Source: an uncultured Caryophanales bacterium (GTDB lineage: Bacteria > Bacillota_I > Bacilli_A > Acholeplasmatales > Anaeroplasmataceae). From it: 49,833 bases of DNA. Location: positions 1-49,833 of the forward strand of contig CAMJOZ010000006.1 of NCBI GenBank assembly GCA_946407635.1, read 5' to 3'. The notes under the pieces are model-generated. The model was given only the letters and a program-made list of their open reading frames with translations, was not told where the DNA came from and searched no databases. The translations under genes and the position numbers were made by a program. Positions 6,182 through 45,185 of the stretch are shown here, in pieces; the first letter of the stretch is position 1; each line of letters starts with the position of its first letter.

Positions 6182-6220
6182 ATTTCTAAATTTGTTTATT
6201 TTTGGGAAGAAGTGTTTCTA

Positions 6221-19801: not shown

Positions 19802-22267
19802 ATGAAATTAAGAAAATTAGGTCTATTTGCAATTTTAGGTTTAGGCTTATTTAGCTTAGCTGCCTGTGGTAGTACATCAAATGATGGTGATCCAACTAAC
19901 CCTTCAGGTCAAACTTCTGGAGAAGGAGAAGGCCAAGGTGGCGGAAGCCAAGGAGGTAATACTCCTAGTGGTGGTGAAGGTCAAGGCGGAGGCCAACAAG
20001 GTGGCGGTCAAGTAGCACCTGAACCAGTTGTTTTAGGTAAAATAAATGTTTCTACATATGCTGGTGATTTAGAATCTTGTTATTTAGAATGGGATAAATT
20101 ACAAGGTGTTAAAGATTATAACGTATATTATAAAGAATCAAATGGAACTCAATATACAAAAATTGATTCACAATTAGTTAGAGAATATGGTGATCATTAT
20201 AGAGCAGATGTTATAGGCTTAAAGGCTGGCACTTATGATACTAAGGTAATCCCTGTTGTTGATAATCAAGAAAAAACTGATTATGAAACTGTAGTTTCAA
20301 ATTTAACAGTTAAATCATATGATAGAACTGGTTTTGCTTTTTCAACTGCATCAACTATGAGTGGAAATACTATTGGAGCATATAATGCTGATGGTACTTT
20401 AAGAGCTGGAGCTAAAGTTATTTATGTAACAGGTGATAATGCCAAAACTGTTAAAGCAACAATCGGAGGTAATGAAGTTACTGGATTACAAGGTATTATC
20501 TATGCTAAGCAAAAAGCATCAACTTCAAGTGAAATTGTTGATATAAGAATTGTTGGTACAATTTATGCAAATCAAATGGATGCTTTTGGATCATCAAAAG
20601 AAGGCTTACAAATTAAAGGTGCAAAAGCACATCAAAATATGAACATGACTGTTGAGGGTATCGGTAATGATGCTGGTATTCATGGCTTCGGTATATTAAT
20701 GAGAAATACTGCCAATGTTGAATTAAGAAATTTTGGTGTTTTGGATTTCATGGATGATGGTATTTCTATTGATACTGATAACAGTAATTTGTGGGTTCAC
20801 AATCTAGATATTTTCTATGGACAAGCTGGTGGAGATGCTGACCAAGCTAAAGGTGATGGTACAATAGATTTAAAAGGTGATTCTAAATTTATTACTATTT
20901 CATATAATCATTTCTGGGATTCTGGTAAAGCATCACTTTGTGGTATGAAGAGTGAAACAGGTCCAAATTATATTTCATATCATCATAACTGGTTTGATCA
21001 TTCTGATTCAAGACATCCAAGAATTAGAACAATGTCTGTTCATGTTTATAATAATTATTATGATGGAAATTCTAAATATGGCTGTGGTGCAGCATATCAA
21101 TCTAACGCATTTGTAGAAGGTAATTATTTTAGAGATTGTAAATATCCAATGTTATCATCTATGCAAGGTTCTGATGTTTATGGTGGAGGAACTGAATATA
21201 ATGCAGATTATGGAACTTTCTCTGGCGAAGATGGTGGAATTGTAAAATCATACAATAATAAGATGGAAGGAAATTATACTTATATTCCATATGGAGCAAC
21301 ACAATATATTTGTAAGGGAACTCAAAAAGCATATGATTTGGCTGGCACAACATCTACGACACATTTTGACGCAGTAGAAGTAACATCAAGGACTGAAACA
21401 ATACCAAACACAATTAGTGCTGTTAAGGGTGGATCTCAATATAATAATTTTGATACATCTATTGATTTAGGTGTTACAGCTGCTCAAATTCAAACACCAG
21501 ACGCAGCTAAAGAAACAACTATGCAATATGCTGGTAGAGTTCAAGGTGGAGATTTAAAATGGACATTTGATAATGCTACTGAAGATACAAATTATAGTGT
21601 TATTAAAGCATTTAAGACAGCTGTTGTTAATTATAAGAGTACTTTAGTTAGAGTATATGGAATTGATTCTTCATCAACTGGTGGAGATACTCCAACACCA
21701 ACACCAATTCCAACTGGCGTAACTGTTGCAGATGTTATTGCATTAATCGATGCTTTACCTGAAGCTTCTAGTGTTACTGAATCTAATAGAACTCAAATTA
21801 TGGCTGCATATGATGCATTTGATTCATTGACTTCAGATGAAAAAGAAGAAGTAACAAATAAATCAAAATTAGATGCATGTATTGCTGCATTGCCAATGCC
21901 AGCATCAGTTACAATTAGTTTTACATCATCTACAGCTGCAACTGGTACAAATAATGTTGTTGTATATGATACTAATAATATTAAAATAACTTGTACTAAA
22001 ATTGCTTCAATTGATTCTACAAGAGGATTAAAATTTAATAGTTCACAAGGATTTACAATTGCAAATAATACATCTAATAATTTACAATTTGTATTAACTG
22101 TTGTGGCAAATGACTCTACAGGAAAATCTTTTACATATGGTTCAACTACAAAAGATTTGAGTAAAACTCCTGATACTATTACTGTAACAATTAATGCTAG
22201 TTCAACATTCACTGTTACTACATCAACTGGTGGAGCTTTCTTAACTAATATTACAATTAATTCATAA
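19802..22267 (+). CDS. Secreted PL1 pectate lyase lipoprotein
   Basis: 821 aa. A lipoprotein signal ends in LAAC (Cys22), followed by a flexible linker of G, S, Q, E to about residue 78. A fibronectin-like domain spans about 80-165. The right-handed beta-helix of family PL1 covers about 170-610, with the calcium-site region DADQAKGDGTIDLKG at about 345-359 and the catalytic arginine motif SRHPRIR (Arg404, Arg407, Arg409). A helical segment (IDALPEASS..., about 645-700) and a C-terminal beta domain complete it. The enzyme should cleave polygalacturonate by beta-elimination at the cell surface. The lyase, helical and FN3-like parts match those of the 3345-aa protein closely. Its promoter region matches that of the sigma gene. 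Confidence 0.93.
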   Translation: MKLRKLGLFAILGLGLFSLAACGSTSNDGDPTNPSGQTSGEGEGQGGGSQGGNTPSGGEGQGGGQQGGGQVAPEPVVLGKINVSTYAGDLESCYLEWDKLQGVKDYNVYYKESNGTQYTKIDSQLVREYGDHYRADVIGLKAGTYDTKVIPVVDNQEKTDYETVVSNLTVKSYDRTGFAFSTASTMSGNTIGAYNADGTLRAGAKVIYVTGDNAKTVKATIGGNEVTGLQGIIYAKQKASTSSEIVDIRIVGTIYANQMDAFGSSKEGLQIKGAKAHQNMNMTVEGIGNDAGIHGFGILMRNTANVELRNFGVLDFMDDGISIDTDNSNLWVHNLDIFYGQAGGDADQAKGDGTIDLKGDSKFITISYNHFWDSGKASLCGMKSETGPNYISYHHNWFDHSDSRHPRIRTMSVHVYNNYYDGNSKYGCGAAYQSNAFVEGNYFRDCKYPMLSSMQGSDVYGGGTEYNADYGTFSGEDGGIVKSYNNKMEGNYTYIPYGATQYICKGTQKAYDLAGTTSTTHFDAVEVTSRTETIPNTISAVKGGSQYNNFDTSIDLGVTAAQIQTPDAAKETTMQYAGRVQGGDLKWTFDNATEDTNYSVIKAFKTAVVNYKSTLVRVYGIDSSSTGGDTPTPTPIPTGVTVADVIALIDALPEASSVTESNRTQIMAAYDAFDSLTSDEKEEVTNKSKLDACIAALPMPASVTISFTSSTAATGTNNVVVYDTNNIKITCTKIASIDSTRGLKFNSSQGFTIANNTSNNLQFVLTVVANDSTGKSFTYGSTTKDLSKTPDTITVTINASSTFTVTTSTGGAFLTNITINS

Positions 22268-26178: not shown

Positions 26179-26208
26179 CCAATAAAAGTGAATTTTTATT
26201 TGTTTAAA
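26179..26208 (+). promoter_or_regulatory. Shared motif upstream of the ECF sigma gene, candidate autoregulated promoter
   Basis: CCAATAAAA (26179-26187), 11 bases, TTTGTTTAAA (26199-26208). It matches the lyase promoters at 19744 and 27960 in both elements and spacing. If used as a promoter the transcript would start only about 10 bases before the ATG at 26221, so part of the ribosome site would be lost; the main start or the role may differ here. Confidence 0.6.
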
Positions 26209-26220
26209 GGATGTGAGAAG

Positions 26221-26739
26221 ATGAATTTAGATGATATAGTTGAAGAATTTAGAGATGCTAACTATACTCATTTTGATGAATTTTATAATCAAACTAAAAA
26301 AAATGTTTTCTTCTCAATTGCTGCGATAGTTAAAGATAATTCTGTTATTGATGATTTGATGCAAGATACTTATATAAAGTTTTTAGAAAACATCAGCAAG
26401 TATAAAAAAACCAGCATAAACGCATATTTGTCCACTATGGCTCATAATATAGCCATTAATTACTATAACAAAGAAAAAAGAATAATACACGATGATGAAA
26501 TTATTGATTATCAACAGGATAATACTAATGATAAGAACTATGAATATATAGAAGCATTAGAATTATTAAAAGAATTAGATGATATATCAAGAGAAATTGT
26601 CGTACTTCATACAATTAATGATTTAAAGTTTAAAGAAATTGCGAAAATTGTAGGAAAACCCATAGGTACAGTTTTATGGATTTATAATAAGGCAATTAAG
26701 GAACTACAAAGAAAGGTAGGTGCTAATAATGAAAAATGA
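26221..26739 (+). CDS. ECF-type RNA polymerase sigma factor
   Basis: 172 aa, with only sigma regions 2 and 4. Region 2 covers about 18-80, including the core-binding stretch DDLMQDTYIKFLE and the -10 recognition part NAYLSTMAHNIAINYYN. Region 4 covers about 107-165 with the helix-turn-helix LKFKEIAKIVGKPIGTVLW. ATG at 26221 follows AAAGGATGTGAG; GTG at 26188 would add 11 non-conserved residues. The stop overlaps the start of the next gene (ATGAAAAATGA), the usual arrangement of a sigma factor with its anti-sigma factor. It lies between two pectate lyase genes whose upstream regions share its own upstream motif, so those genes are its likely targets. Confidence 0.9.
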   Translation: MNLDDIVEEFRDANYTHFDEFYNQTKKNVFFSIAAIVKDNSVIDDLMQDTYIKFLENISKYKKTSINAYLSTMAHNIAINYYNKEKRIIHDDEIIDYQQDNTNDKNYEYIEALELLKELDDISREIVVLHTINDLKFKEIAKIVGKPIGTVLWIYNKAIKELQRKVGANNEK

Positions 26740-27889
26740 TATTAAGAAAATGTTAAAAAAATTATCAGAAGATCAAGAGATTCATGATATTCAAAAGTTA
26801 ATATTAGATAATGTTGATAAATCTAAAGTATTGAATCCAGAACCTATTAAAAAGCCATTAGCACCTAAAAAAAGAAGATTTGTATTCCCAGTACTTTTAG
26901 GTGCTTTGGCAACAGCTGTGTTTGTCGTAACATTTGTAATAGCATTTAATTTTAAAAATAATAATCCTGAAAATAATCCTATTGAACCAAATCCAAATGT
27001 TCCAGTTGAACCAGGTGATATTATTGATCCTACTGAACCAACTGAAATAGATGTTGTATATGATGATGTTAGTATCGATGTTGCAGAAGCGTTCTATTCT
27101 AATTTTACAACAATAGATGCTTCTAACATGATTAATATTGTTAATACATTTAATAAAGTATCATATGTTGAAGTTCCTGATACTACAATTGATGATAAAA
27201 AGCATTATTTAACACCTGAGTTAGAAGAATCAATTGTTAATGATGTTGATGCTTATAGATTTAATTTAGAAGAAATGTTAGGAAAAGTATCATCTACTCG
27301 TACACAAGCACTTAATGATAATCCAAGCTATTCTTATAAAAAAGTTATTGATGTAATTAACGATAGTTTTGAACATCATATTTATTTTACAGAAAACATA
27401 TTAGAAGTTGTTGAAAGTGATGAATCAAGCTTTAGATATAAATCTGAATTAAATGGTGTTATTGTTTCTGGTTCCAACGAGTATTCATTCACTGGTATTA
27501 AAAGAATTAAGAAATCAAGATTATCATATGAGCTAGTTATTACAATCGATGATAATAATTATGTTGAAGTAAAAGAACAATATGATATTAATTCAGATTT
27601 AACTATTAATTATAAGACTTTCAATTATAATTACATTTATCATTCAAATGACTTTATAAAAAATGTTAGAATTATTCAAAAATTTGATTTAGATAAAACA
27701 ACTAAAGAAGTAGAATTTATCTCTAATGAAGGTAAATCTAATGAAGTTAAGATGACTTTTAAGCCAAATAATACATATTATTTAAAATCATCTATTAAAT
27801 CAAGAGAAAGTGATGAATTATATATTACGAAAAATGATAATTCTTATATATATAAGTTTAAAAATTCAAAAAATGAATATGTAAGATAG
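26729..27889 (+). CDS. Putative transmembrane anti-sigma factor with unknown extracellular sensor
   Basis: 386 aa. ATG at 26729 is chosen over GTG at 26720, which lies within the GGTAGGTG ribosome site. About 50 cytoplasmic residues (KKMLKKLSEDQEIHDIQKL...) lead to one membrane helix at about 51-75, then an N/P/E-rich stalk to about 105. A roughly 280-residue outer domain rich in beta-type segments follows; I do not recognise it. There is no classic HxxxCxxC zinc anti-sigma motif and no recognisable RsgI N-terminal domain. The role is inferred from the overlap with the sigma gene and the one-pass topology: the outer part would sense a signal and release the sigma factor. Confidence 0.75.
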   Translation: MKNDIKKMLKKLSEDQEIHDIQKLILDNVDKSKVLNPEPIKKPLAPKKRRFVFPVLLGALATAVFVVTFVIAFNFKNNNPENNPIEPNPNVPVEPGDIIDPTEPTEIDVVYDDVSIDVAEAFYSNFTTIDASNMINIVNTFNKVSYVEVPDTTIDDKKHYLTPELEESIVNDVDAYRFNLEEMLGKVSSTRTQALNDNPSYSYKKVIDVINDSFEHHIYFTENILEVVESDESSFRYKSELNGVIVSGSNEYSFTGIKRIKKSRLSYELVITIDDNNYVEVKEQYDINSDLTINYKTFNYNYIYHSNDFIKNVRIIQKFDLDKTTKEVEFISNEGKSNEVKMTFKPNNTYYLKSSIKSRESDELYITKNDNSYIYKFKNSKNEYVR

Positions 27890-27893
27890 TTCT

Positions 27894-27922
27894 AAACTCA
27901 CCAAAATTTTGGTGAGTTTTTA
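27894..27922 (+). terminator. Rho-independent terminator after the sigma operon
   Basis: A perfect inverted repeat of 13 bases per arm (27894-27906, 27907-27919) around AATT, followed by T residues. Confidence 0.9.
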
Positions 27923-28081: not shown

Positions 28082-31000
28082 ATGAAAAAGAAGTTTGTTT
28101 ACATTGGAGCTGGATTATTTTTTTGTGCATTATCTTTATCAAGCTGTATAAAGAGTGAATCAAAATATCCTACAAATCCAAAAAAAGAAGAATCATCAAA
28201 TGATGAACCAACAAATAATGATTCATCACAAGTTGTAGATGATTCAAAAGCAGTAGTATCTTTTAATGTAGATGGTGGTACTCAAATTGAAAATATTACT
28301 GTTGACAAAGGAAGTAAGATTAATGAACCTACAACAACGAAACCAACAACTCAAGAATACACATTTACATTTGGTGGTTGGTTTACAGATTCAACTTTTA
28401 CTACTCCATTTGATTTTAATAATTTAATTAATTCAAATATAACTATTTATGCTAAATGGAATAAAGTAAAAAATAAATATACTATTACATGGTTCGATTC
28501 TGATGACTCTGTTTTAAAGACAGAACAAGTAGAATATGGAACAACTCCAGAATATACACCAGCAAAGCTTACAAGCGGCTATACTCAAACATTTGTAGGC
28601 TGGGATACACCAGTTGTTCCTGTAACTGGTAATAAAACATATAAAGCCCAATGGACAACTCCTGTTAAAAATAAATATAATGTTACATGGAAAAATGGCG
28701 AAGAAACAATCAAGGTTGATGAGGTTGAGCATGGGACAACTCCAGTTTATGAAGGTGATGTTCCAACTAAAGAATCAACACCTGAATATACATATTCATT
28801 TATTGGCTGGACACCAGATGTTGATGTTGTTACAGGTGATGTAACATATTATGCTGAATTCTCAGAGACAAAGAATAAATATACAGTAACATTTGTTAAT
28901 TATGATGATACTGAGCTTAAATCTCAAGAAGTAGAATATGGTCAATTACCACAAACACCAGTAGTAAATCCTACAAGAGAATCAGATAATTACAATACAT
29001 ATACATTTGCAGGCTGGGATAGTGAAGTTGTTTCAGTAACTGGAAATGCTACATATAAAGCAACTTATACTGAAACACCAATCGAATACACAATTAGATT
29101 CGTTGATTATGATGGCACAGAATTAGCTTCAGAAACTTTACATTACAATGATGTAGTAGAAGCACCTCAAAACCTTTCTAGAGTAAATACACCTGAATAT
29201 ACATATGAATTTACTGGATGGGATTCAGAAGTATCAAATGTAACTGGAAATAAAACATATACAGCTACATATTCTGAAACAAAAAATAAATATACAATTA
29301 CATTCGTAAATGAAGGTGTAGAATCATCTCAAGAAGTTGAATATGGTTCAATGCCTCAAACACCATTAATTAATCCTACAAAGGATTCTGATAATGTATA
29401 TTCATATACATTTGCAGGTTGGGATAGTGAAATAGTAGCAGTAACAGGTAATAAGACATATACTGCAGTTTATACACCAAAATATATTGAATATACAATT
29501 AGATTTGTTGATTATGATGGCACAGAATTGACTTCTGAGACATTACATTACAATGATGAGGTAGAAGCACCTTCTAACCCTTCTAGAGCAAATACAGCTG
29601 AATATACATATGAATTTATTGGATGGGATTCAGAAGTATCAAATGTAACTGGAAATAAAACATATACAGCTACATATTCTGAAACAAAAAATAAATATAC
29701 AGTTTCATTTAACACATTAGGTGGAAATGAAATTACTGATATTGAAGTTAATTATGGTGATTTAATTACTAAGCCAGCAAACCCTTCTAAGGATAATTAC
29801 AATTTCTCTGGTTGGTATATTGAAGAAGGTTGTATTAATCAATTTAATTTCAACACACCAGTAACAGGTCCTGTAACACTTTTTGCTAAATGGACTGAAC
29901 AAGCTCCTGAGGTTTATACAGTTACATTCCATTTAAATAATGGTTCAACTAATGTAGCTCAAGTAATTACTGAAGGAGAATATGCTTATTTTGGACAAAA
30001 TCCTATTAAAGAATCTACAGTATCAACTGTATATACATTTGTAGGCTGGTATACTGATGAAAATTTAACAGCTGGTAATGAATTTGATTTAACAACTCCA
30101 ATTACATCAAACTTAAATTTATATGCTAAATATGATGAAAGTGTAAGAACTTATTCAATTACTTGGTTAAATGCTGATGATTCTGTAATTGATTCAACAG
30201 AAGTAGCTTATGGAAATCTACCAACACACGCTAATCCAACAAAGGATTCAACTTCACAATATAATTATGAATTTTCAGGTTGGACTCCAGAAGTTGTAAA
30301 TGTTTCAGGTGAAGCAACATATAAAGCTACATATACTGAAAGTGTAAGAAGCTATACTGTAACATGGAGAAATGATGATAATTCATTAATTGATCAAACA
30401 ATATTAAATTATGGTGAAACACCAACACATGCAGATCCAACAAAAGCTTCAACAGCTGAATATACTTACGAATTTGCAGGTTGGACACCAGCAGTTGATA
30501 ATGTATCAGGTGACATTACTTATACAGCAACTTATAATGAAGTTAAAAATAAATATACAATTACATTCGTTAATGATGATTTAACAATCTTATCAGAAGC
30601 ACAAGTAGAATATGGTCAATTACCTCAAGCTCCAGTTGTAAATCCTACTAAGGAAGCTACAGTACAATATAGCTATACATTTAATGGCTGGGATACTGAA
30701 GTTGTATCAGTAACATGTGCTAAAACATATACTGCAACTTATTTAGAAACAGTTAATAAATATACAATTACATTTGTTAATTATACTGGAACAACATTAC
30801 AAACATCTCTAGTTGAATATGGCGAGTTACCAATATATCAAGGTGAAACACCTACTAAACCAGCAACTTTAGAATATAGCTACACATTTAATGGTTGGGA
30901 TAGTGATGTAACAACAGTAACAGGTGCTAAAACTTATCAAGCAGTATTTACTGAAAATACTCAATCATATTTAATTACATTTAAAAATGGTGAAGAAGTA

Positions 31001-34000
31001 TTACAATCTACAATGGTTCAATATGGTGTAATGCCTGTTTATGAAGGTTTAACTCCTTCTAAGGTAGCATCAACAGAATGGGAATATACATTTATAGGTT
31101 GGGATAAGGCTATTAATAATTGTAATGGTGAAGAAACTTATTATGCTTTATTTACAGGAACTAAGAGAAAATATAATGTTTCTTGGGTAAATGAAGGTGT
31201 GCTAATTTATAGTGAATTAGTTGAATATGGTACTACACCAGTATATGATGGTGTAACACCTACTAAAGAATCTACAGTTCAATATGATTTTGAATTTGAT
31301 GGTTGGACTACAGCTGTATCAGCTGTTACAGGTGATGTAACATATGAAGCTCATTATACAAATGTTACTAGACAATATACATATTCATTCTATCAAGAGG
31401 ATGGTATTTCAACATACAAATCAGTTACAGATTATTATGGAACTATAATTGAGGCTCCAGCAAATCCAACAAAATCAGGTGATTTAAGAAGAACTTATGT
31501 ATTTGATGGTTGGTATACAGATAAAACTGGTGGAGTAGAGGTTACTAATTTTGGCACATTAACTTCAAATATTTCATATTATGCAAGATTCTATGAAACT
31601 GATAAATTATATACAATTTCATTTATGGATGGTTCAGTAGAATTAGAAACAGTTTCAAATGCTATTTATGATACTGAATATTCACTAGGAACTCCAACTA
31701 AAACAGGATATGTATTTGATGGTTGGGATGAAACAATTTCTGGTTCAACAATTACAAGAACTGCAATATTCAACGAAGAAAAAGAAGAATATACAGTAAC
31801 ATGGTTAAATGAAGATGGATCATTATTAAGAAATGATACGGTATTAAAGAATGGAAAAGCATCTTATGGTACTAAACCTACTAAGGCAGGATATAAATTC
31901 TTATATTGGGCTAAGGATGGTGTAGAATTTGATGTAGAAAATACAAATATTACTTCAAATATTACATTAAAAGCAGTATTCGCTGAAGTATATTCAGTAG
32001 GCTTTGGTGCAAGTTATACATCATGGAATGAGCTTGTTAATCAAGCTGGTTCAAGTGTAACAACTGATAGTAAAAATAGAAAAGTATTGAATACCGAAGT
32101 AAGCTTAAATGGTTATACATTTGAAAACAATAATAAGAATTTAGTTGCTAGTGATAATTCAGCATATAATAATCAAGGTTCAGACATTGTTGTAACACTA
32201 ACTAAAGAAGGTTCTTTATTTACAACTTGCTCATGGGCATCTTCAACAAGTGAAGGTTATATTACAGTTAAAGATTCATCAGATAATGAAATTTATAAAT
32301 CTAATTCAATCAAAGGTTCTGGTACTGGATGCTCATTCTCAATTGAAGATTTAAATCCAGGTACATATAGAATTCATTCTGATTATTCAATTAATATTTC
32401 ATCAATTCATTACGAAGTAGTAAAAGAATATGCAAATGTTAGCTACGTAACTAATGTAACTGGATATCATATTGACTCAGATAGAGTTGTTGTTGGTACA
32501 ACAATATCTAGCTTACCAGTATTACAAAGAGATGATTATAAATTTATTGGTTGGTGTACAGATTCAACATTAAATGATTTATTTGATTCAACAACAGTAA
32601 TTGATGGAGATTTAATATTATATGCTAAATGGGTTCAATTAACTGAAGAAGAAAAAGCAACAGTTACATTTGCTGTAAATGTTTCAGGTGAATCATTTGA
32701 TCCTATTTCAATTGAAAAAGGTAATACAATTGTTTTACCTTCAAAAAATATAAATGGTTATAGATTTGATGGTTGGTATACATCTAATTCATATAATCAA
32801 TTATTTAATCCATCTACAGTTATTAATGAAGATATAACAATTTATGCTAATTATATTAAGCAATGTGTAATTACATATCAAGATAAAGATGGTAATGTTA
32901 TTACAACAAATAAGGTAGATATCAATACTCCATTTGGTGAGGTCGCAACAGTATCTGCTCCATATGTATCAGGATATATATTCGATTACTGGACAAATAA
33001 TAATGTTGAATTCTCATCTTATGAAGATATTAGTAGTGATATTATCCTAAAGGCACATTATAAAGAAGATGATGGTACAAATGAAAAGATTGTAATCACT
33101 AGAACAGAAGGATTACAAGAAAGTGCATATCTTTTATTCAATGAATATAATAATGCAGATGATTATAGTATTTATGAAATTGATTCTTCAAATAACACTA
33201 GAAGATTATCAAATAAAGAATATTATATTACAAGAACAAATACTGGCTTAAGAGCTGATTTATTCGGCTTATCTGCTGGTAACCATAAGATTATGGTAGC
33301 ACCTGAAATCGGTGGTACAGATGTAATTTCAGTTGCTACTCAAGCTACATTTACAGTAGAAGCATATGATAGATCTGGTTATGCACATTTCAATTACACT
33401 GATGGTGTTGGTGCATATAATGATGATGGTACTTTAAAAGATAACGCAATCGTATTATATGTAACTGATGAAAACAAAAACACTGTTGAACTTTCATATG
33501 GCGGAATCACTGTTAAAGGTATCGGTAATATTTTAAATACAGCAGGTCAAGCTTGTGGTGAGACTGGTCATGAAACTGAATGTAAGAAGGTATCTAGTGG
33601 TAAAACATATTATGGTCTAGGTAATACTAACCAAGGTATTATTAAGAAATTAGCTCAAGATAATATTCCACTTGTTGTAAGATTTGTTGGTTGTGTATCT
33701 AATACAGGATTATATCAAAAGGGTACATTTAACGCAGCAAATACATCACTTATTAATGGTTTAACAGCATATGATTCAAATGATTATGGTGGATCTGAAG
33801 GCGACAATGGTCATATGGCACGTATGAAGAGTGGTAAGAATATTACACTTGAAGGTGTTGGTAGTGATGCAACAATCGATGGTTGGGGATTCCATTTTAT
33901 GGCATCAAGTGATGCAACAGATTTAGGTAAATCATTTGAAGTTAGAAACTTAAAATTTATTAATACACCAGAAGATGCAATCGGTATGGAAGGTGTACAA

Positions 34001-37000
34001 AGTGGTGATACAATTTCAGCATCTGTAGAAAGATGTTGGGTACATAATAATGAATTCTATTGTCCTAATATCTCATCTCCAGCTGAATCTGATAAGGGAG
34101 AAGGAGATGGTTCATGTGACTTCAAGCGTGGTATGTATTTCACATGTAGCTACAACTATTTTGAAGGATGTCATAAGACTAACCTAGTTGGTTCATCTGA
34201 TTCATCACTTCAATATAACCTAACATATCATCATAATTATTGGTATTTATGTAAGGCAAGAGGACCATTAACAAGACAAGCAAACGTACATATGTATAAT
34301 AATATATTCTATGGACAAACAGATTATGCAATGAATACTAGAGCAAATGCTTATATTTTCTCTGAATCAAATTTATTCTATGCATGTAAGAATCCATTTA
34401 GGGTTGATGGTGGTGCAATTAAATCATATAATGATTCATTATCAAGTGCACTTCAATCATATACTTCAGCAACAATAGTTACTGATAAGAATACAGCAGT
34501 ATCTAATTCAGCTTGTCAATATAATGGTGTAAGCTATTCATCATTTGAATTAAATAGCTCATTATTCTATAAGAATGATTATTATTTACAATCTGATCCA
34601 ACAGATGCAAAGAAGGTTATTTATGCAAGATGTGGTACATCTAAAGCATCATTACCTCAAATTGAAGATATTACAATGAGTGATATATCTTATGTAAATG
34701 AAGCAGTAAAGAATGCAACAGTTAATAATTTAAGTGTAAATGGTTCAACTACTGAAACTGGTAAAATATCAAAAACTATTTATGCATTTAAGATTACTGA
34801 ATCAGCAAAAGCAACAATTACATATCAAGATAATACAGATGCCAAAACAGGTGTATTATGTAATGAAGCAGGTGTTGCTTTACTAAAAGCATCTGGTACA
34901 GTTGAATTAAAGCCAGGTACTTACTTCATTCAACCTTATAATTTCCAACCAGGAGATTCAAAGGCACTTTCTCAATTAGTATTTAAAGAAATTGCAAGTG
35001 TATCTATTAAATTAGAAGTATTTGATGATTCTGAATATCAAAATACATTAATTAGTGAATTTAATTCATTAGTTAATAGTTTACCTACAATTACTTATAA
35101 TGATAATTGTTTAAATAAGATTAACGCTGCATTTGATAAATATAATCAATTAAATGATCAATCTAAGGTTACAGTACAAGCAAATTATAATGTATTATTA
35201 AATGCTAATAACACATATAAGAATTTAGGTATAAGCTATGTTGAAAATAAGATTAATCAAATTGTAACTCCAGTAACTGAAGAAAATGCAGATTATGTAT
35301 ATGAGGCAAGAAGTGCTTACAATGAATTATTAAATAAGGTTCCTTCTGCACAAGTATCTAATTATAACAAGTTAATTTCTGCAGAATCAGAGTTAGAAAA
35401 GATTGCAGTAAATATTTTCTTAACCAAGGTGAGCCTATTACCTTCAAACATAACATATTCAAGTTCATGCTTAGAAAAGATTGTTGATGCAGAAAATGCA
35501 TATGAAGGCTTAACTGAGGTTCAAAAACAATTACAAGAGGATGACGCAGATGTAGTTTCTGCACACCAAGTATTAGTAAATGCTAGAAATACTTATAACC
35601 AATTAGAAGAAGATGCCAATAAAGTAACAGTATCATTCGTCGCAGATGGATTAACTATTGATCCAGTTATGGTTAAGAAGAATACTAAGCTAATCTTACC
35701 TCAAGATCCATTTAAGTCAGGATATAGATTTGATGGTTGGTATACTGATGTTAATAGAACAACTAAGTTCAACACATCAACATTAATTGATGAGGATATG
35801 ACTTTATATGCTAAATTTGTTCAACAAGTTACAGTTACATTCATTAATAATGATGGTACAACATTACTTGCAACAAGAAGTGTTGATATCAATAGCCCAA
35901 TGTCATCATCAATTATTCCAAGTGCACAATTCGTATCTGGATATAAATTCAAATATTGGTCTTTAACAAAGAATGGTTCTGAATTTGATTTTAACTCTGA
36001 TATTTCATCTAACATTACATTATATTCTGTATATGAAGAGGCTATAGGTGTATCAGTTGAAATTACAAATTATGGTGGAGACCAAGAAGCATTATATGCA
36101 GAATTCAACAAGCTAGATGGCTTCACTGATTACAATGTTTATATTAAGCGTGATGGAACTTCATCATATTCATTAATTGACAAGCAATTAATTAGAGAAT
36201 ATGGTTCTTATTATAGAGTTGATGCAGTAGGTGTTAAAGCTGGAACATATTCAATGAAGGTTGTTCCATTCAACAATCAAGAAGTAACTGATTATCAAAC
36301 TGAAGTAACAAATATTACTGTTGAAGGTCATATAAGAACAGGATTTGCATTCGTAAATGGTAGTGCATCAGGTGCTTATAACAATGATGGTACATTAAGA
36401 AGTGATGCTACAGTTATTTATATAACTAATACTAATAAGGATACAGTTACATTCAATGGTGCGACTGGCATTCAAAATATCATAACATTATTAAAGAGTA
36501 ATAAAGGATATAGTAAACCATTATGTATTAGATTCATTGGTAACATTACAGATCCACAAGTATTAGGTAAAGGTGACTTATATGTTGATACAGCAAAAGC
36601 TGGCTTAACACTTGAAGGTGTTGGTACAGATGCTACAATCAATGGATTTGGTATAGTAATCAAGAATTCATCTAATGTAGAAATTAGAAACCTAGGCTTC
36701 ATGAACTGCAACAGTAGTGAAGGAGATTCTATTGGACTTCAACAAGGTAATGACCATGTTTGGGTACATAATTGTGATATTTTCTATGGTGATGCAGGCT
36801 CTGATGCTGACCAAGTTAAGGGTGATGGTGCCTTAGATACTAAGACAAGTACTTATATCACTCACTCATTTAACCATTTCTGGGATACTGGTAAATCTAA
36901 TTTACAAGGTATGAAGAGTGAATCAACATCAAATTATATTACATATCATCACAACTGGTACGACCATTCAGATTCTCGTCATCCAAGAATTAGAACATGT

Positions 37001-38119
37001 ACAGTACATACATATAATAACTACTTTGATGGTAACTCTAAGTATGGTGTTGGTATGACAATGGGTGGTTCAGCATTCGTTGAAAACAACTACTTTAGAT
37101 CAACAGCTACAATGAAGCCAATGTTAATATCTCTACAAGGTACTGATGCTTTAGGCGAAGGTACATTCTCTGGAGAAGCAGGTGGTGTAATTAAAGCTTA
37201 TGGTAATAAGTTTGATGGTAATGTATCATTCATTCCACATACAGAAAACTCAACTTCATTTGATGCTTATGTTGCATCTTCAAGAGATGAAGTAGTACCA
37301 AGCTCAATTAAGGCATTATCTGGTGGTACAACTTATAATAACTTTGATACTAATAGTTCATTAATGTATACATATGAAGTAGAAACCGCAGATCAAGCTA
37401 GGATTACAGTAACAACTTATGCTGGTCGTGTTCAAGGTGGAGACTTCACATGGACATTCAATAATTCAACTGATGATGCATCTTATGCAGTTATCGATGG
37501 ATTAAAGCAAAAGTTGGTAAATTACTCAAGTCAGTTAGTAAGAGTATTAGGTATTGAAGGATCATCTCAAGGTGGTCAATCTCAAGAAGAAGATACATCA
37601 ATTGATGATGTAATCAATATGATTGATAGCCTACCAACTCCAGCTAATGTAACATTGAATGATGCTACAGAAATTTATGCAGCTAGAACTGCATATCAAA
37701 AGCTTGATTCAGCTGAACAAGCTCAAGTAACTAATTATTCTAAGTTACAACAATGTATTCAAAAGCTTAACGAACTAGGAAATGATGAGGATGAACACAA
37801 CACATCTGAAACCTTAACTTTCCCTTATAGTGATTCTTATTTCACAGTTGTAGGTAATACTTCAACATCAAAAGGTAGTGTTACATATAACGGAACAACT
37901 TATTCAACATGCTTGAAGATGGAATCTTCAACATCAATTAAGTTCACAACAACAGCGACAACTACTTTAGTAATGGTATTTAACGATACTGATTCGGCTT
38001 ATGTAATGCTTGATGGAGTTAAGACAGGTGGTTCTAATGTAATTACAGTAGAATTAGCTGCTGGTTCTCATGAAATTAAGAAATCAACTACATCTAATTT
38101 GTTCTACTTATCAATCTAG
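28082..38119 (+). CDS. Giant surface lipoprotein with two PL1 pectate lyase domains and 23 InlB-type repeats
   Basis: 3345 aa. Signal peptide ends in LSSC (lipid-anchor Cys22). Order: 18 InlB-type repeats (about 58-1300, each with an FxGW-like core); a beta-sandwich (about 1303-1448); three repeats (to 1665); FN3-like domain plus lyase domain 1 (about 1668-2193) with RGPLTR (Arg2060, Arg2065) at the catalytic position; beta and helical modules (to 2513); two repeats (to 2650); FN3-like domain plus lyase domain 2 (to about 3160) with SRHPRIR (Arg2966, Arg2969, Arg2971); a helical module and a C-terminal beta domain. Lyase domain 2 is close to the 821-aa enzyme; domain 1 is distant and may act on another pectin form. 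AGAAGGGA precedes the ATG. No LPXTG motif. Confidence 0.93.
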   Translation: MKKKFVYIGAGLFFCALSLSSCIKSESKYPTNPKKEESSNDEPTNNDSSQVVDDSKAVVSFNVDGGTQIENITVDKGSKINEPTTTKPTTQEYTFTFGGWFTDSTFTTPFDFNNLINSNITIYAKWNKVKNKYTITWFDSDDSVLKTEQVEYGTTPEYTPAKLTSGYTQTFVGWDTPVVPVTGNKTYKAQWTTPVKNKYNVTWKNGEETIKVDEVEHGTTPVYEGDVPTKESTPEYTYSFIGWTPDVDVVTGDVTYYAEFSETKNKYTVTFVNYDDTELKSQEVEYGQLPQTPVVNPTRESDNYNTYTFAGWDSEVVSVTGNATYKATYTETPIEYTIRFVDYDGTELASETLHYNDVVEAPQNLSRVNTPEYTYEFTGWDSEVSNVTGNKTYTATYSETKNKYTITFVNEGVESSQEVEYGSMPQTPLINPTKDSDNVYSYTFAGWDSEIVAVTGNKTYTAVYTPKYIEYTIRFVDYDGTELTSETLHYNDEVEAPSNPSRANTAEYTYEFIGWDSEVSNVTGNKTYTATYSETKNKYTVSFNTLGGNEITDIEVNYGDLITKPANPSKDNYNFSGWYIEEGCINQFNFNTPVTGPVTLFAKWTEQAPEVYTVTFHLNNGSTNVAQVITEGEYAYFGQNPIKESTVSTVYTFVGWYTDENLTAGNEFDLTTPITSNLNLYAKYDESVRTYSITWLNADDSVIDSTEVAYGNLPTHANPTKDSTSQYNYEFSGWTPEVVNVSGEATYKATYTESVRSYTVTWRNDDNSLIDQTILNYGETPTHADPTKASTAEYTYEFAGWTPAVDNVSGDITYTATYNEVKNKYTITFVNDDLTILSEAQVEYGQLPQAPVVNPTKEATVQYSYTFNGWDTEVVSVTCAKTYTATYLETVNKYTITFVNYTGTTLQTSLVEYGELPIYQGETPTKPATLEYSYTFNGWDSDVTTVTGAKTYQAVFTENTQSYLITFKNGEEVLQSTMVQYGVMPVYEGLTPSKVASTEWEYTFIGWDKAINNCNGEETYYALFTGTKRKYNVSWVNEGVLIYSELVEYGTTPVYDGVTPTKESTVQYDFEFDGWTTAVSAVTGDVTYEAHYTNVTRQYTYSFYQEDGISTYKSVTDYYGTIIEAPANPTKSGDLRRTYVFDGWYTDKTGGVEVTNFGTLTSNISYYARFYETDKLYTISFMDGSVELETVSNAIYDTEYSLGTPTKTGYVFDGWDETISGSTITRTAIFNEEKEEYTVTWLNEDGSLLRNDTVLKNGKASYGTKPTKAGYKFLYWAKDGVEFDVENTNITSNITLKAVFAEVYSVGFGASYTSWNELVNQAGSSVTTDSKNRKVLNTEVSLNGYTFENNNKNLVASDNSAYNNQGSDIVVTLTKEGSLFTTCSWASSTSEGYITVKDSSDNEIYKSNSIKGSGTGCSFSIEDLNPGTYRIHSDYSINISSIHYEVVKEYANVSYVTNVTGYHIDSDRVVVGTTISSLPVLQRDDYKFIGWCTDSTLNDLFDSTTVIDGDLILYAKWVQLTEEEKATVTFAVNVSGESFDPISIEKGNTIVLPSKNINGYRFDGWYTSNSYNQLFNPSTVINEDITIYANYIKQCVITYQDKDGNVITTNKVDINTPFGEVATVSAPYVSGYIFDYWTNNNVEFSSYEDISSDIILKAHYKEDDGTNEKIVITRTEGLQESAYLLFNEYNNADDYSIYEIDSSNNTRRLSNKEYYITRTNTGLRADLFGLSAGNHKIMVAPEIGGTDVISVATQATFTVEAYDRSGYAHFNYTDGVGAYNDDGTLKDNAIVLYVTDENKNTVELSYGGITVKGIGNILNTAGQACGETGHETECKKVSSGKTYYGLGNTNQGIIKKLAQDNIPLVVRFVGCVSNTGLYQKGTFNAANTSLINGLTAYDSNDYGGSEGDNGHMARMKSGKNITLEGVGSDATIDGWGFHFMASSDATDLGKSFEVRNLKFINTPEDAIGMEGVQSGDTISASVERCWVHNNEFYCPNISSPAESDKGEGDGSCDFKRGMYFTCSYNYFEGCHKTNLVGSSDSSLQYNLTYHHNYWYLCKARGPLTRQANVHMYNNIFYGQTDYAMNTRANAYIFSESNLFYACKNPFRVDGGAIKSYNDSLSSALQSYTSATIVTDKNTAVSNSACQYNGVSYSSFELNSSLFYKNDYYLQSDPTDAKKVIYARCGTSKASLPQIEDITMSDISYVNEAVKNATVNNLSVNGSTTETGKISKTIYAFKITESAKATITYQDNTDAKTGVLCNEAGVALLKASGTVELKPGTYFIQPYNFQPGDSKALSQLVFKEIASVSIKLEVFDDSEYQNTLISEFNSLVNSLPTITYNDNCLNKINAAFDKYNQLNDQSKVTVQANYNVLLNANNTYKNLGISYVENKINQIVTPVTEENADYVYEARSAYNELLNKVPSAQVSNYNKLISAESELEKIAVNIFLTKVSLLPSNITYSSSCLEKIVDAENAYEGLTEVQKQLQEDDADVVSAHQVLVNARNTYNQLEEDANKVTVSFVADGLTIDPVMVKKNTKLILPQDPFKSGYRFDGWYTDVNRTTKFNTSTLIDEDMTLYAKFVQQVTVTFINNDGTTLLATRSVDINSPMSSSIIPSAQFVSGYKFKYWSLTKNGSEFDFNSDISSNITLYSVYEEAIGVSVEITNYGGDQEALYAEFNKLDGFTDYNVYIKRDGTSSYSLIDKQLIREYGSYYRVDAVGVKAGTYSMKVVPFNNQEVTDYQTEVTNITVEGHIRTGFAFVNGSASGAYNNDGTLRSDATVIYITNTNKDTVTFNGATGIQNIITLLKSNKGYSKPLCIRFIGNITDPQVLGKGDLYVDTAKAGLTLEGVGTDATINGFGIVIKNSSNVEIRNLGFMNCNSSEGDSIGLQQGNDHVWVHNCDIFYGDAGSDADQVKGDGALDTKTSTYITHSFNHFWDTGKSNLQGMKSESTSNYITYHHNWYDHSDSRHPRIRTCTVHTYNNYFDGNSKYGVGMTMGGSAFVENNYFRSTATMKPMLISLQGTDALGEGTFSGEAGGVIKAYGNKFDGNVSFIPHTENSTSFDAYVASSRDEVVPSSIKALSGGTTYNNFDTNSSLMYTYEVETADQARITVTTYAGRVQGGDFTWTFNNSTDDASYAVIDGLKQKLVNYSSQLVRVLGIEGSSQGGQSQEEDTSIDDVINMIDSLPTPANVTLNDATEIYAARTAYQKLDSAEQAQVTNYSKLQQCIQKLNELGNDEDEHNTSETLTFPYSDSYFTVVGNTSTSKGSVTYNGTTYSTCLKMESSTSIKFTTTATTTLVMVFNDTDSAYVMLDGVKTGGSNVITVELAAGSHEIKKSTTSNLFYLSI
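29084..29705 (+). repeat. Duplicated 405-bp block within the InlB repeats
   Basis: 29084-29300 recurs at 29489-29705, offset exactly 405 bp (135 codons), with long near-identical stretches such as the segments beginning 29221 and 29626. The two-repeat unit was duplicated recently compared with its neighbours. Confidence 0.85.
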
Positions 38120-38130
38120 TTTAAAAAATT

Positions 38131-38159
38131 GAGATAGAGTTTGACTCTATCTCTTTTTT
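38131..38159 (+). terminator. Rho-independent terminator after the giant lyase
   Basis: GAGATAGAGT-TTG-ACTCTATCTC (38131-38153), then T6. Confidence 0.92.
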
Positions 38160-41576: not shown

Positions 41577-44500
41577 ATGAAAAAGAAAAGAATTTTATTA
41601 GGCATTGCTTTAGCAAGTGCCTCAATCTTTGCTTTAGCATCATGTGGAGGAAAAAATGATAATACTCCAAATGATGATGAACAAAAAGATACAAGTGGAA
41701 GCCAAAGTGGTGATAGTGGCCAACAAGGTGGAGGTCAACAAGGCGGAGGCGAAGGTCAAAGCCAAGGTGGTGGAGAACAAACTGTCACTAAATATTCAAT
41801 TACATATAATGTAAATGGCCATGGTACTGCCCCTGCAAATAAGACTGATGTAACAGCTATTACTGATGCTGATTTAGCTGCAATTTCAGCACCTGGTTAT
41901 TTATTTGAAGGCTGGTTTACTGATGAAGCTTTAACTCAAGCTGCAACTGCAGGAAATATTTCTACTAATACTACATTATATGCAAAATGGTATGGTGCAT
42001 CTTATGAAGCAGTAAAAGAAAAGGGTAATGTTGCATTAGATGAACGATTTAATGAATCTAAAGTACTTGATAGTTATTCATATATGTATTCATTTAATGA
42101 TACTGGTATTTATTTTGTAAGTGCTGTTCATTCTGATAAACCTGATAGTCCTAAATCAACTTATAGTTACACAATTGCTGATAAAAAATTAACTTTAGTT
42201 GATGGTGATGCAGCAAGTGGTGGAGATACTAAAGGTTCTGCAAAGGCTATTGTTAGTTTTGGAAATACACCAAAAGCTGAAATTTTAGAAGGTTATGTTG
42301 ATGTTAATATTCCTGTAAAAAATAATAACTGGACTTTCTTCCAATTATATGGTACAGATACAGTTAAAACTAATAGTGAAATTTTTGGTCTAAGAACTGT
42401 TGAAGAAACAGTAGATAAAGTTAAGAAAACATTTATTCAATATCGTATTGATGGTAATGTTAAAACTGAAGGTATTATTAATAAATTTGAAGTAACTGAT
42501 AATACATCATTTGGTATGCACTTAGTTATTAATCAAATTACTGGTAAAATTTCTATTGATTTAATTAAGGCTGATGGTACAGTTTTACCATTTATTAAGG
42601 ATGTTGAGATTCCTGGATATGTTTTATCTACACGTTATTTATTTACATCAACAGATGGTGGTAACAAGGTATTATCTTTTACTAATGTTGTATTAAGAGC
42701 TGAAAAAGAAATTACTGATGTTGCTCAATATAAAGCTAAAGTTTTAGCTTATTTCAATCCAGTACTTTCTGAAATGGCACCACGTTATGTTACAAATAAG
42801 ACTCAATTTGAAGCTGCAAGAGATGCTATAGTTGCTGCCGTTGAAGCTGCAGAAACTATTGATGCTATTGATGCAATTGTAGATATATCAAGCCAAGAAT
42901 CTGCATCTCCTGAGATGATAGCATTAATGTCTGTTGAAGATGAATGGACAATTAAAAGAAATTATATTAATGAAAATTATCCAGAAGATAATTATACAAT
43001 AAAATCTAGTGATTATTATGCTGCATGGAATAATTTATACAGGGCTTCAACTATAGATGAATTAAATGCAGCAGTTGCAGCATTTGCAAATGTTCAAAAT
43101 GACGAAGCTGCAAAGGCTGATTATATTGATTCTAAGGTTGCTGAATTACAAAAACTTTTACCTGCTTCAAATTATACATTTGAAGATACAGAGTATAATA
43201 ATAAGCCAGCTTATGATAGTGCAATAGCTTTTATTACAGGAAACCATAAAAATGATATTGATAAATCTTATTCCCAAGCAATTACAGCTATAGCATCTAT
43301 TCCAACAAATGCTTTATTATTATCTTCTGCAAAATCTAATTATTTGGTTTCAGTTGGTAATTATAGAACTGATTTAACTGGAAAAACAGTAAGTTCAAGT
43401 GAACAAACTGCAATTGATGAATATTATGGATCAACAGCAGAAGATTCTTTATATAATACAAAGAAAGCTACAGCAGCATCTTCAATTAATGCTGCAGAAA
43501 CTCTTGATGCTATTAAATCTGCATATTCTACATTTACATCTGGTGTTGATACAGATATCAATGGAATTGTAATGTCTCTTGAAGATTACAAGACAAATAG
43601 AAAGAATCAAATTAATAATGTCGATGCACCTAACTATAAGGAATATCAAGATGATGATATTATTGACTTAATTGATGCAGCTGTAACAGAATATTGTGGT
43701 AATATAGATTCTGCAACATCTAAAGAAGCTGTAAAAACAGCATATGATGCTTGTATTGCTCAATTTGATTTAATTTATTATAAGAGAGATGCAAGAGCAA
43801 ACTTTAGAAAATGGATTACAGATACATATTTTACAGCTGGTGCTGAAAAACAAATTAAGACAACTAAATATGCTGTATTAAAAGAATTTGACACAGTAGA
43901 TGAAGAAGCAATACAAGCTATTTTCGCTGCAAATAGTGAAGCAGATGTTGATACTGCTGTTGTTAATGGACAATCAGCATATGAAGAAGAATATCAAAAA
44001 TTATTAACATATGAATTTGATGTTGATTTTGAAAATGTTGAATTAACATCTGCAAAGGTTGTTTATGGTAATACATTACAGCAACCAGCTGATCCAGCTG
44101 TAGATGCTGATAAGTTATTTATTGGTTGGTATGCAGATTCTACATTTACAACTCCATTTGATTTCACACAACCTATTTATGAAGACACAACTTTATATGC
44201 AAAAATTGTTGCTGCTGTGACTGTAACATTAAATTATAATGCTACAATTAATAATGTAACTACTAAATCTATTAAGATTGAAAGTGGTACAACAATTTCA
44301 TCTACTGAATTAAATGTTACTCAAGATGATGCTATGTTATTTGATTGGTATCAAAATGCTGATTTTAGTGGTGATGCTGTAACAACAACTACTGTATTCA
44401 ATGATAGTACAACAATTTATGCTAAGTGGGCTGATATTTATACAACTACTGTTATGAGTACTACATCAACTGCTACTCCAGCTGCTGTATCTGCTGAAGC

Positions 44501-45185
44501 AGGTGAAGGAGTACTTTCAAGCGGAAAAATTGTTGAAGGCAAATCTATTACTTATAATGAATTTACATTTACTGCTGGAATTTCATTTGATGGATCAAAG
44601 AGAATTCAATCTAATGGTGGAAGTCAAAATGCTGCTGATAAATTAAGACAAATTTTCATTACAATAGAACATACTGCAACTATTACATTAACTGAAAATA
44701 AAACATCAGCGGGAAGACATGCTGCTATTTTTAATGGAACAGTAACATCATATAGTGCTGATGCGGCTCTTGTTATATTGACGACAAATAATACTGATAC
44801 AAATACTGCATCAATCAAATTAAATGCTGGAACTTATGTAGTATTATTTGATGCTTCTGTTAATTTGACATCCTTATCAATAGTTTATGATGCCTATAAT
44901 GTTAATACAATAATTGAGTCAATTACCGCAACTGTTCCTTCTGAATGTAATGATGGTAAAATTTCAGTATCTGATATTAAATTAATTCCAAATGGTGTAA
45001 CAGATCCAACTCAATATGTTGCTATAACTGAAGGCTATACTATTTTAGTTAATGGCGTTGATAGAACTGATGAATTTGTAGGAAATAAACTTGCAGTATC
45101 ATCAGGAGATTATACAGTTACTATTAAATATGGTGATTATACAGTATCACAATTATTTAATGTTTCTGTTATTGCAATGTCTTAA
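41577..45185 (+). CDS. Large surface lipoprotein with InlB repeats and an unassigned beta domain
   Basis: 1202 aa. The signal ends in LASC (Cys23), followed by a G/Q/S/E-rich linker to about 70, as in the 821-aa lyase. One InlB-type repeat is at about 72-140 (YLFEGWFTDEAL). Residues about 140-380 form a beta-rich domain with the look of a jelly-roll or LamG-like carbohydrate module, but I cannot name it. About 390-810 is a series of helical three-helix-type repeats, then two InlB repeats (FIGWYADST, FDWYQNAD). The C-terminal beta domain (about 965-1110) resembles the beta module near residue 1303 of the giant lyase. AGGAGG precedes the ATG. No catalytic motif was seen; polysaccharide binding is an inference from the shared parts. 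Confidence 0.82.
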   Translation: MKKKRILLGIALASASIFALASCGGKNDNTPNDDEQKDTSGSQSGDSGQQGGGQQGGGEGQSQGGGEQTVTKYSITYNVNGHGTAPANKTDVTAITDADLAAISAPGYLFEGWFTDEALTQAATAGNISTNTTLYAKWYGASYEAVKEKGNVALDERFNESKVLDSYSYMYSFNDTGIYFVSAVHSDKPDSPKSTYSYTIADKKLTLVDGDAASGGDTKGSAKAIVSFGNTPKAEILEGYVDVNIPVKNNNWTFFQLYGTDTVKTNSEIFGLRTVEETVDKVKKTFIQYRIDGNVKTEGIINKFEVTDNTSFGMHLVINQITGKISIDLIKADGTVLPFIKDVEIPGYVLSTRYLFTSTDGGNKVLSFTNVVLRAEKEITDVAQYKAKVLAYFNPVLSEMAPRYVTNKTQFEAARDAIVAAVEAAETIDAIDAIVDISSQESASPEMIALMSVEDEWTIKRNYINENYPEDNYTIKSSDYYAAWNNLYRASTIDELNAAVAAFANVQNDEAAKADYIDSKVAELQKLLPASNYTFEDTEYNNKPAYDSAIAFITGNHKNDIDKSYSQAITAIASIPTNALLLSSAKSNYLVSVGNYRTDLTGKTVSSSEQTAIDEYYGSTAEDSLYNTKKATAASSINAAETLDAIKSAYSTFTSGVDTDINGIVMSLEDYKTNRKNQINNVDAPNYKEYQDDDIIDLIDAAVTEYCGNIDSATSKEAVKTAYDACIAQFDLIYYKRDARANFRKWITDTYFTAGAEKQIKTTKYAVLKEFDTVDEEAIQAIFAANSEADVDTAVVNGQSAYEEEYQKLLTYEFDVDFENVELTSAKVVYGNTLQQPADPAVDADKLFIGWYADSTFTTPFDFTQPIYEDTTLYAKIVAAVTVTLNYNATINNVTTKSIKIESGTTISSTELNVTQDDAMLFDWYQNADFSGDAVTTTTVFNDSTTIYAKWADIYTTTVMSTTSTATPAAVSAEAGEGVLSSGKIVEGKSITYNEFTFTAGISFDGSKRIQSNGGSQNAADKLRQIFITIEHTATITLTENKTSAGRHAAIFNGTVTSYSADAALVILTTNNTDTNTASIKLNAGTYVVLFDASVNLTSLSIVYDAYNVNTIIESITATVPSECNDGKISVSDIKLIPNGVTDPTQYVAITEGYTILVNGVDRTDEFVGNKLAVSSGDYTVTIKYGDYTVSQLFNVSVIAMS

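Follow-up and report, generated by a model that had tools for sequence, protein, structure and literature searches.

A giant lipoprotein with two pectate lyase-type domains, probably born from gene fusion, in an uncultured Anaeroplasmataceae bacterium

PelC (1air), Bsp165PelA (3vmv) and the Bacillus clausii enzyme 7xks are short PL1 pectate lyases made of a single domain. A gene from an uncultured Caryophanales bacterium (Acholeplasmatales, Anaeroplasmataceae) codes instead for a lipid-anchored chain in which two divergent PL1 domains follow one another, which raises the questions of whether both domains are active, where such a chain comes from and what it does at the cell surface. The gene lies in a window of 49,833 nucleotides (the whole stretch of DNA that was analysed: contig CAMJOZ010000006.1, assembly GCA_946407635.1). 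Very likely, it encodes a surface lipoprotein with two Ca2+-dependent PL1 lyases acting on homogalacturonan, derived from a gene fusion, in a host that is probably devoid of a cell wall.

The gene and its modules

The reading frame starts with ATG and is uninterrupted; the corresponding frame of the opposite strand has many stops. The gene is flanked on both sides by terminator-like hairpins (Table 1). The first-pass annotation proposed that the product is a lipoprotein of 3345 amino acids, and this is what we find: it has a signal peptide and a lipobox (...SLSSC) at Cys22, and LspA (signal peptidase II, PF01252) is encoded in the genome.

The Pfam families detected in the protein are Flg_new (7.7e-106), Pectate_lyase_4 (1.5e-42, in two stretches) and CBM77 (2.9e-29). 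The InlB B-repeat family (Flg_new, PF09479) scores 346.7 bits, above the cut-off, and an iterative repeat HMM returns 23 InlB-type repeats in three groups, of 18 (residues 57–1305), 3 (1451–1666) and 2 (2515–2656), which is exactly the number that was first read from the sequence, including the 18 that form a stalk behind the lipid anchor. Within the stalk, a unit of two repeats is duplicated in tandem (405 bp, 1.9 copies, 85% match, positions 28921–29709), so that the length of the stalk may vary and is sensitive to assembly; its exact repeat count is less certain for this reason. The repeat fold is shared with the Listeria InlB B-repeats (2y5p, TMt 0.84, 37–38% identity); in InlB, however, they belong to an invasion protein that also has an LRR domain, whereas those of the giant protein carry enzymes.

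The lyases and repeats do not exhaust the composition of the chain: the first-pass annotation overlooked a CBM77 module (residues 3250–3343) as well as FN3-like, beta-sandwich and helical modules. The CBM77 module scores 102 bits, against a cut-off of 25, and matches the Ruminococcus flavefaciens CBM77 (5fu5) both by sequence (E 5.7e-19) and by fold (E 4e-7), with 49% identity. The beta-rich domain that separates the stalk from the repeat triplet (residues 1306–1450) gives no Pfam match above cut-off and no firm PDB sequence match in profile searches; the model of the D1 region, taken as a whole, weakly matches 8x8h and 8wc1 ("carbohydrate binding domain of a putative pectate lyase"), and this domain is possibly carbohydrate-binding. 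The Pfam scan detects no dockerin in the protein, which therefore does not qualify as a cellulosomal enzyme. Every named module of the giant protein belongs to a known family.

Table 1. Features of the giant gene, its flanks and its paralogue in the window
Feature	Position	Strand	Evidence
D2-type paralogue: PL1 lipoprotein of 821 aa, 48% identical to D2	19802..22267	+	
Terminator-like hairpin, upstream, between the giant gene and the sigma-factor pair	27894..27919	+	
Giant dual pectate-lyase lipoprotein, 3345 aa	28082..38119	+	uninterrupted ORF
Signal peptide with its lipobox LSSC, up to Cys22	28082..28147	+	sequence; lipobox in most family relatives; LspA encoded
Stalk, 18 InlB-type (Flg_new) repeats, residues 57–1305	28250..31996	+	Pfam and iterative HMM
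Beta-rich domain, about 145 aa, residues 1306–1450, spacer between stalk and triplet	31997..32431	+	AF2 pLDDT about 90; position conserved in relatives
Three Flg_new repeats, residues 1451–1666	32432..33079	+	iterative HMM
FN3-like beta domain preceding lyase 1, residues 1667–1759	33080..33358	+	AF2 strands; weak fold assignment
PL1 lyase domain D1, residues 1760–2150	33359..34531	+	Pfam, PDB sequence matches, AF2, fold match, alignment
Beta-sandwich after lyase 1, residues about 2195–2320	34664..35041	+	AF2 model; conserved in relatives
Helical linker, residues 2321–2513, ending at the fusion junction	35042..35620	+	AF2 models; junction mapping
Two Flg_new repeats, residues 2515–2656, from the D2 gene	35624..36049	+	HMM; junction mapping; InlB B-repeat 2y5p, TMt 0.84
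FN3-like beta domain preceding lyase 2	36050..36316	+	AF2 strands; weak FN3 matches
PL1 lyase domain D2, residues 2746–3100	36317..37381	+	Pfam, PDB sequence and fold matches, alignment
Short helical linker ahead of the CBM	37589..37777	+	AF2 model
CBM77 pectin-binding module, residues 3250–3343	37829..38110	+	Pfam; 5fu5 match
Terminator-like hairpin just 3' of the giant gene	38131..38153	+	

Two divergent lyase domains with conserved active sites

Both domains match PL1 enzymes. D1 scores 77 bits with Pectate_lyase_4 (cut-off 24) and matches 3vmv with an E-value of 1.4e-21; the AF2 model of its region has a mean pLDDT of 89.7, and the pectate lyase 7xks is its top fold match in the PDB (TMt 0.69). 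D2 scores 93 bits with the same family and matches 7xks with an E-value of 1.5e-24. The model of the D2 region has a mean pLDDT of 75.4, with low confidence across much of the beta-helix, and the corresponding alignment includes 13 sequences; the PL1 matches of this region (3vmv, 7xks) are strong both in sequence and in fold. The two domains are only 31% identical and each has an RxPxxR motif (RGPLTR, residues 2060–2065, in D1, and RHPRIR, 2966–2971, in D2) whose arginines are invariant among relatives, in agreement with the initial description of two different PL1 domains.

We take residues D131, E166, D170, K172, K190, R218 and R223 of PelC to be the Ca-ligand and catalytic positions. Their counterparts are, in the same order, D1965, D2009, D2013 (Ca), K2015, K2032, R2060 and R2065 in D1, and D2882, D2915, D2919 (Ca), K2921, K2938, R2966 and R2971 in D2. 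They are invariant in 48 of 48 D1 homologues, including that of R. flavefaciens FD-1, and in all 13 D2 sequences, so that the loss of calcium ligands or of the catalytic arginine, which would have argued against the initial reading, is observed in neither domain. The position of E166 is occupied by an aspartate in both, which preserves the carboxylate. The geometry of the Ca site is deduced from conservation in the alignments rather than from the coordinates of the models. An alternative placement of PelC D131 in D1, suggested by phmmer (D1976, in the sequence GDTI), was rejected: an aspartate is present there in only 4 of 48 sequences, and D1965 is invariant.

As the Ca-ligand, Lys and Arg positions of PelC are retained throughout the aligned homologues, D1 and D2 are probably both active Ca-dependent pectate lyases, sharing with PelC, 3vmv and 7xks the beta-helix, the Ca ligands and the catalytic Arg and Lys positions. 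The retention of the Ca ligands favours a pectate lyase over a Ca-independent pectin lyase. It could be argued that D2 is the only active pectate lyase and that D1 has a different target (some other uronate polymer, or pectin bearing substituents) or serves mostly for binding, considering the low identity between the two domains, the insertion of about 8 residues that follows the first Ca-ligand strand of D1, and the C-x4-H-x3-C loop that D1 has in the window protein, in four of its five fused relatives and in some other homologues. We consider this rather unlikely, because the Ca ligands and the K and R residues of PelC are invariant in the 48 D1 homologues, that of R. flavefaciens FD-1 included, and because the top fold match of D1 is a pectate lyase. 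That D1 is active but has a different substrate preference is possible. The C-x4-H-x3-C loop itself (residues 1825–1834, positions 33554–33583) is found in all but one of the six fused proteins, and also in L068, L070 and L071, whereas most D1 homologues lack it; it is possibly a metal-binding or disulfide loop.

Lyases of the D1 type are widespread in Bacillota of the gut, R. flavefaciens FD-1 and Lachnospiraceae among them. The FD-1 enzyme (L114) has the same active-site residues as D1, but the D1 genes of R. flavefaciens encode a single lyase, with neither lipobox nor InlB-repeat stalk, unlike the giant gene. Regarding D2, sequences from Monoglobus pectinilyticus are 44–46% identical to it (plasmid search). 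The 821-aa lipoprotein encoded in the same window was first described as near-paralogous to D2; this is too strong, as the two are 48% identical and fall in separate D2 sub-clades of the tree. Named relatives situate the window within the MAGs of Acholeplasmatales and Anaeroplasmataceae from rumen and gut; Anaeroplasma is placed within the Mollicutes.

A fourth PL1 gene of the source genome (G000:C25:6627-9089; L004, L035) encodes a D1-type lyase with a CBM77 in a frame of 1177 aa; in the tree, its D1 joins those of the genes of G002, G004 and G026, which are not fused, and not that of the giant protein. A giant of another design is encoded in a Clostridia MAG (L119:2027-12124), where a lyase domain, divergent but of the D1 type, lies close to the C-terminus of a frame of 3366 aa.

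A probable origin by fusion of two lyase genes

The two lyases are found in one frame in six genomes of the same genus (the source genome G000, and G003, G008, G013, G015 and G019). A profile running from the linker to D2 matches end to end in these six and in none of the others among the 160 genomes of the order that were searched. The design is thus rare, as was first noted, but it is not unique. In other members of the order, D1 and D2 are encoded by separate genes that are often adjacent (L041, L042, L043, L048, L053, L061) and mostly carry their own lipobox. Among these separate genes, the stalked PL1 lipoproteins of Anaeroplasmataceae L044, L045, L048 and L053 are built from the same modules as the giant protein (lipobox, repeats, spacer domain, triplet, D1 or D2, and often CBM77), but they have one lyase per chain, whereas the giant protein is a fusion of both types.

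The comparison with G024, where the genes are not fused, locates the junction. Residues 690–2530 of the giant protein align to the G024 D1 gene, and the match to the D1 gene ends around 2513–2530; residues 2513–3345 align to residues 1549–2392 of the G024 D2 gene (57%), starting inside the repeat triplet of the latter. In the tree, the D1s of the fused proteins group together (support 97), and so do five of their six D2s (support 99); the sixth D2, from G008, has no firm position relative to that of the unfused G024. Because the D1-gene and D2-gene alignments meet at about 2513–2530, and because sister lineages keep separate genes, we propose that the giant gene results from the fusion of two genes for stalked lyases, a single event being the simplest reading. 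One parent gene would have encoded a lyase of type D1 and the other a lyase of type D2, both on stalks, and both types are lipoproteins in relatives; on fusing, the D1 gene would have lost its C-terminus, and the D2 gene its signal peptide, its stalk and the first repeat of its triplet.

The reverse scenario, in which an ancestral two-lyase protein was split into separate genes in sister lineages, would fit the adjacency of D1 and D2 genes, which is seen in many lineages (Ruminococcus and a Lachnospiraceae among them). It is nevertheless very unlikely: the order of the two genes varies from one lineage to the other, the unfused state is widespread, with a signal peptide for each gene and often its own stalk or CBM, and the fused forms are limited to one clade of one genus. 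The preference for fusion over fission is based on topology and on the fit of the junction. It is also conceivable that the chain is a chimera, created when adjoining repeat-containing genes were assembled, since the source is a metagenome assembly with internal repeats and the 405-bp tandem duplication. This can be dismissed almost with certainty, and we reject it as regards the linkage of D1 to D2: the same succession of D1, helix, two repeats and D2 is seen at the junction in the five other MAGs, and the four fused relatives that were aligned are 62–80% identical to the window protein over both lyases. The C-terminal domain is less constant than the lyases, being a CBM77 in some fused relatives and another sequence elsewhere. 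The fused protein of G008 (L036) has an N-terminal membrane segment and neither a recognisable lipobox nor a long repeat stalk.

We found no published description of such a protein in the open-access literature that we searched. The nearest published two-lyase chain that we found is ABN53381.1 from Clostridium thermocellum, whose architecture is PL1B-dockerin-CBM35-PL9 (PMC4319962). Like the giant protein it combines two lyase domains and a CBM in one chain, but it pairs PL1 with PL9 and has a cellulosomal dockerin, whereas the giant protein pairs PL1 with PL1 and has a lipid anchor and a stalk. In the giant protein, well-known parts come in a new combination: a lipid anchor and a repeat stalk that bear two PL1 domains joined through gene fusion, in a lineage that is probably without a wall.

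The stalk, the cell wall and the use of pectin

The transpeptidase (PF00905), FtsW/RodA (PF01098) and MraY (TIGR00445) have no match in the source genome or in the five other fused genomes. The source genome is a MAG that is 95% complete, and the absence of a gene from a MAG is not proof; yet the lack of all three suggests that the host is probably wall-less, in which case the stalk need not cross a wall. Within the same genus, G004, G011, G014, G022 and G026 match all three genes, and G002 the first two. PF00905 is found in 6 of the 27 MAGs of this genus (g1, G000–G026), namely these six, and is absent from the others, nearly complete genomes among them; such a patchy distribution suggests that the wall was lost recently or repeatedly.

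Stalked lyases also occur in relatives that have wall genes (g5, G002, G014), and the stalk is therefore not tied to wall loss. Stalks of about 5–10 repeats were seen in relatives with wall genes, and the longest ones, of 16–20 repeats, in genomes without such genes, in a small sample. The idea that a stalk is required for crossing the wall is likewise unsupported, since stalks are found in both kinds of relatives, again in a small sample. The first-pass annotation held that the enzymes are displayed far outside the envelope: the 18-repeat stalk stands, but what it says about the envelope needs care, as genes for peptidoglycan synthesis are missing and long stalks are present in walled relatives too.

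Our proposal for how the protein works is the following. The lipid anchor would tie it to the membrane of the probably wall-less cell, and the stalk, if extended, would keep the enzymes clear of the membrane; at a rough guess of 3–5 nm per repeat, its 18 repeats would span about 55–90 nm. CBM77 would capture pectate, and D1 and D2 would cleave homogalacturonan internally by beta-elimination, with an arginine as the base and bridging calcium. The unsaturated oligogalacturonides released would be taken up, trimmed and catabolised by way of GH88/105, KduI and KDPG aldolase. In the source genome, three contigs have pectinesterase-type matches, and a GH88/105-type hydrolase, KduI and KDPG aldolase are encoded as well; the genes are dispersed among contigs, and matching a family is no proof of a pathway. 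One of the pectinesterase matches (G000:C19:17389-18333, L122) lies within an open frame of 1722 aa, which possibly encodes another large pectin-active surface protein.

The long stalk, the CBM77 and the resemblance of the repeats to those of the surface protein InlB would also suit an adhesin that holds cells on plant fibre, lysis being secondary. That this is the main function is unlikely, considering that both lyases have fully conserved active sites, and that in some fused relatives the CBM is swapped for another sequence while the lyases stay. We thus favour a role in pectin degradation. A broader idea, which is speculative and which we put forward with some doubt, is that a group of rumen and gut Anaeroplasmataceae, having lost their own wall, specialise on the pectin of plant cell walls: giant lipoproteins with a stalk and several lyases, set on the bare membrane, would do the work of cellulosomes or wall-anchored enzymes, the fusion being a step in this direction. 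If this were so, a cell without peptidoglycan could still display pectinases, by means of a lipid anchor and a very long stalk of repeats, each anchor bearing several enzymes, and the locus would offer a clean case of enzyme fusion whose unfused precursors are still present in sister species. The genus includes bacteria with and without a wall, so that what the stalk does, and what wall loss entails, can be compared among close relatives.

Last, we note several genes around the giant gene. Upstream, an ECF-type sigma factor gene (26188–26739) is followed by a gene (26720–27889) whose product has a single likely transmembrane segment, matches no Pfam family and is a putative membrane partner of the sigma factor; the two are possibly a sigma/anti-sigma pair. 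Two other large proteins encoded in the window have Flg_new repeats: one of 1277 aa (6212–10045), which also has Flg_new_2 repeats, BspA-type LRRs and a membrane segment at its N-terminus, and a lipoprotein of 1202 aa (41577–45185) with a long, probably helical region.
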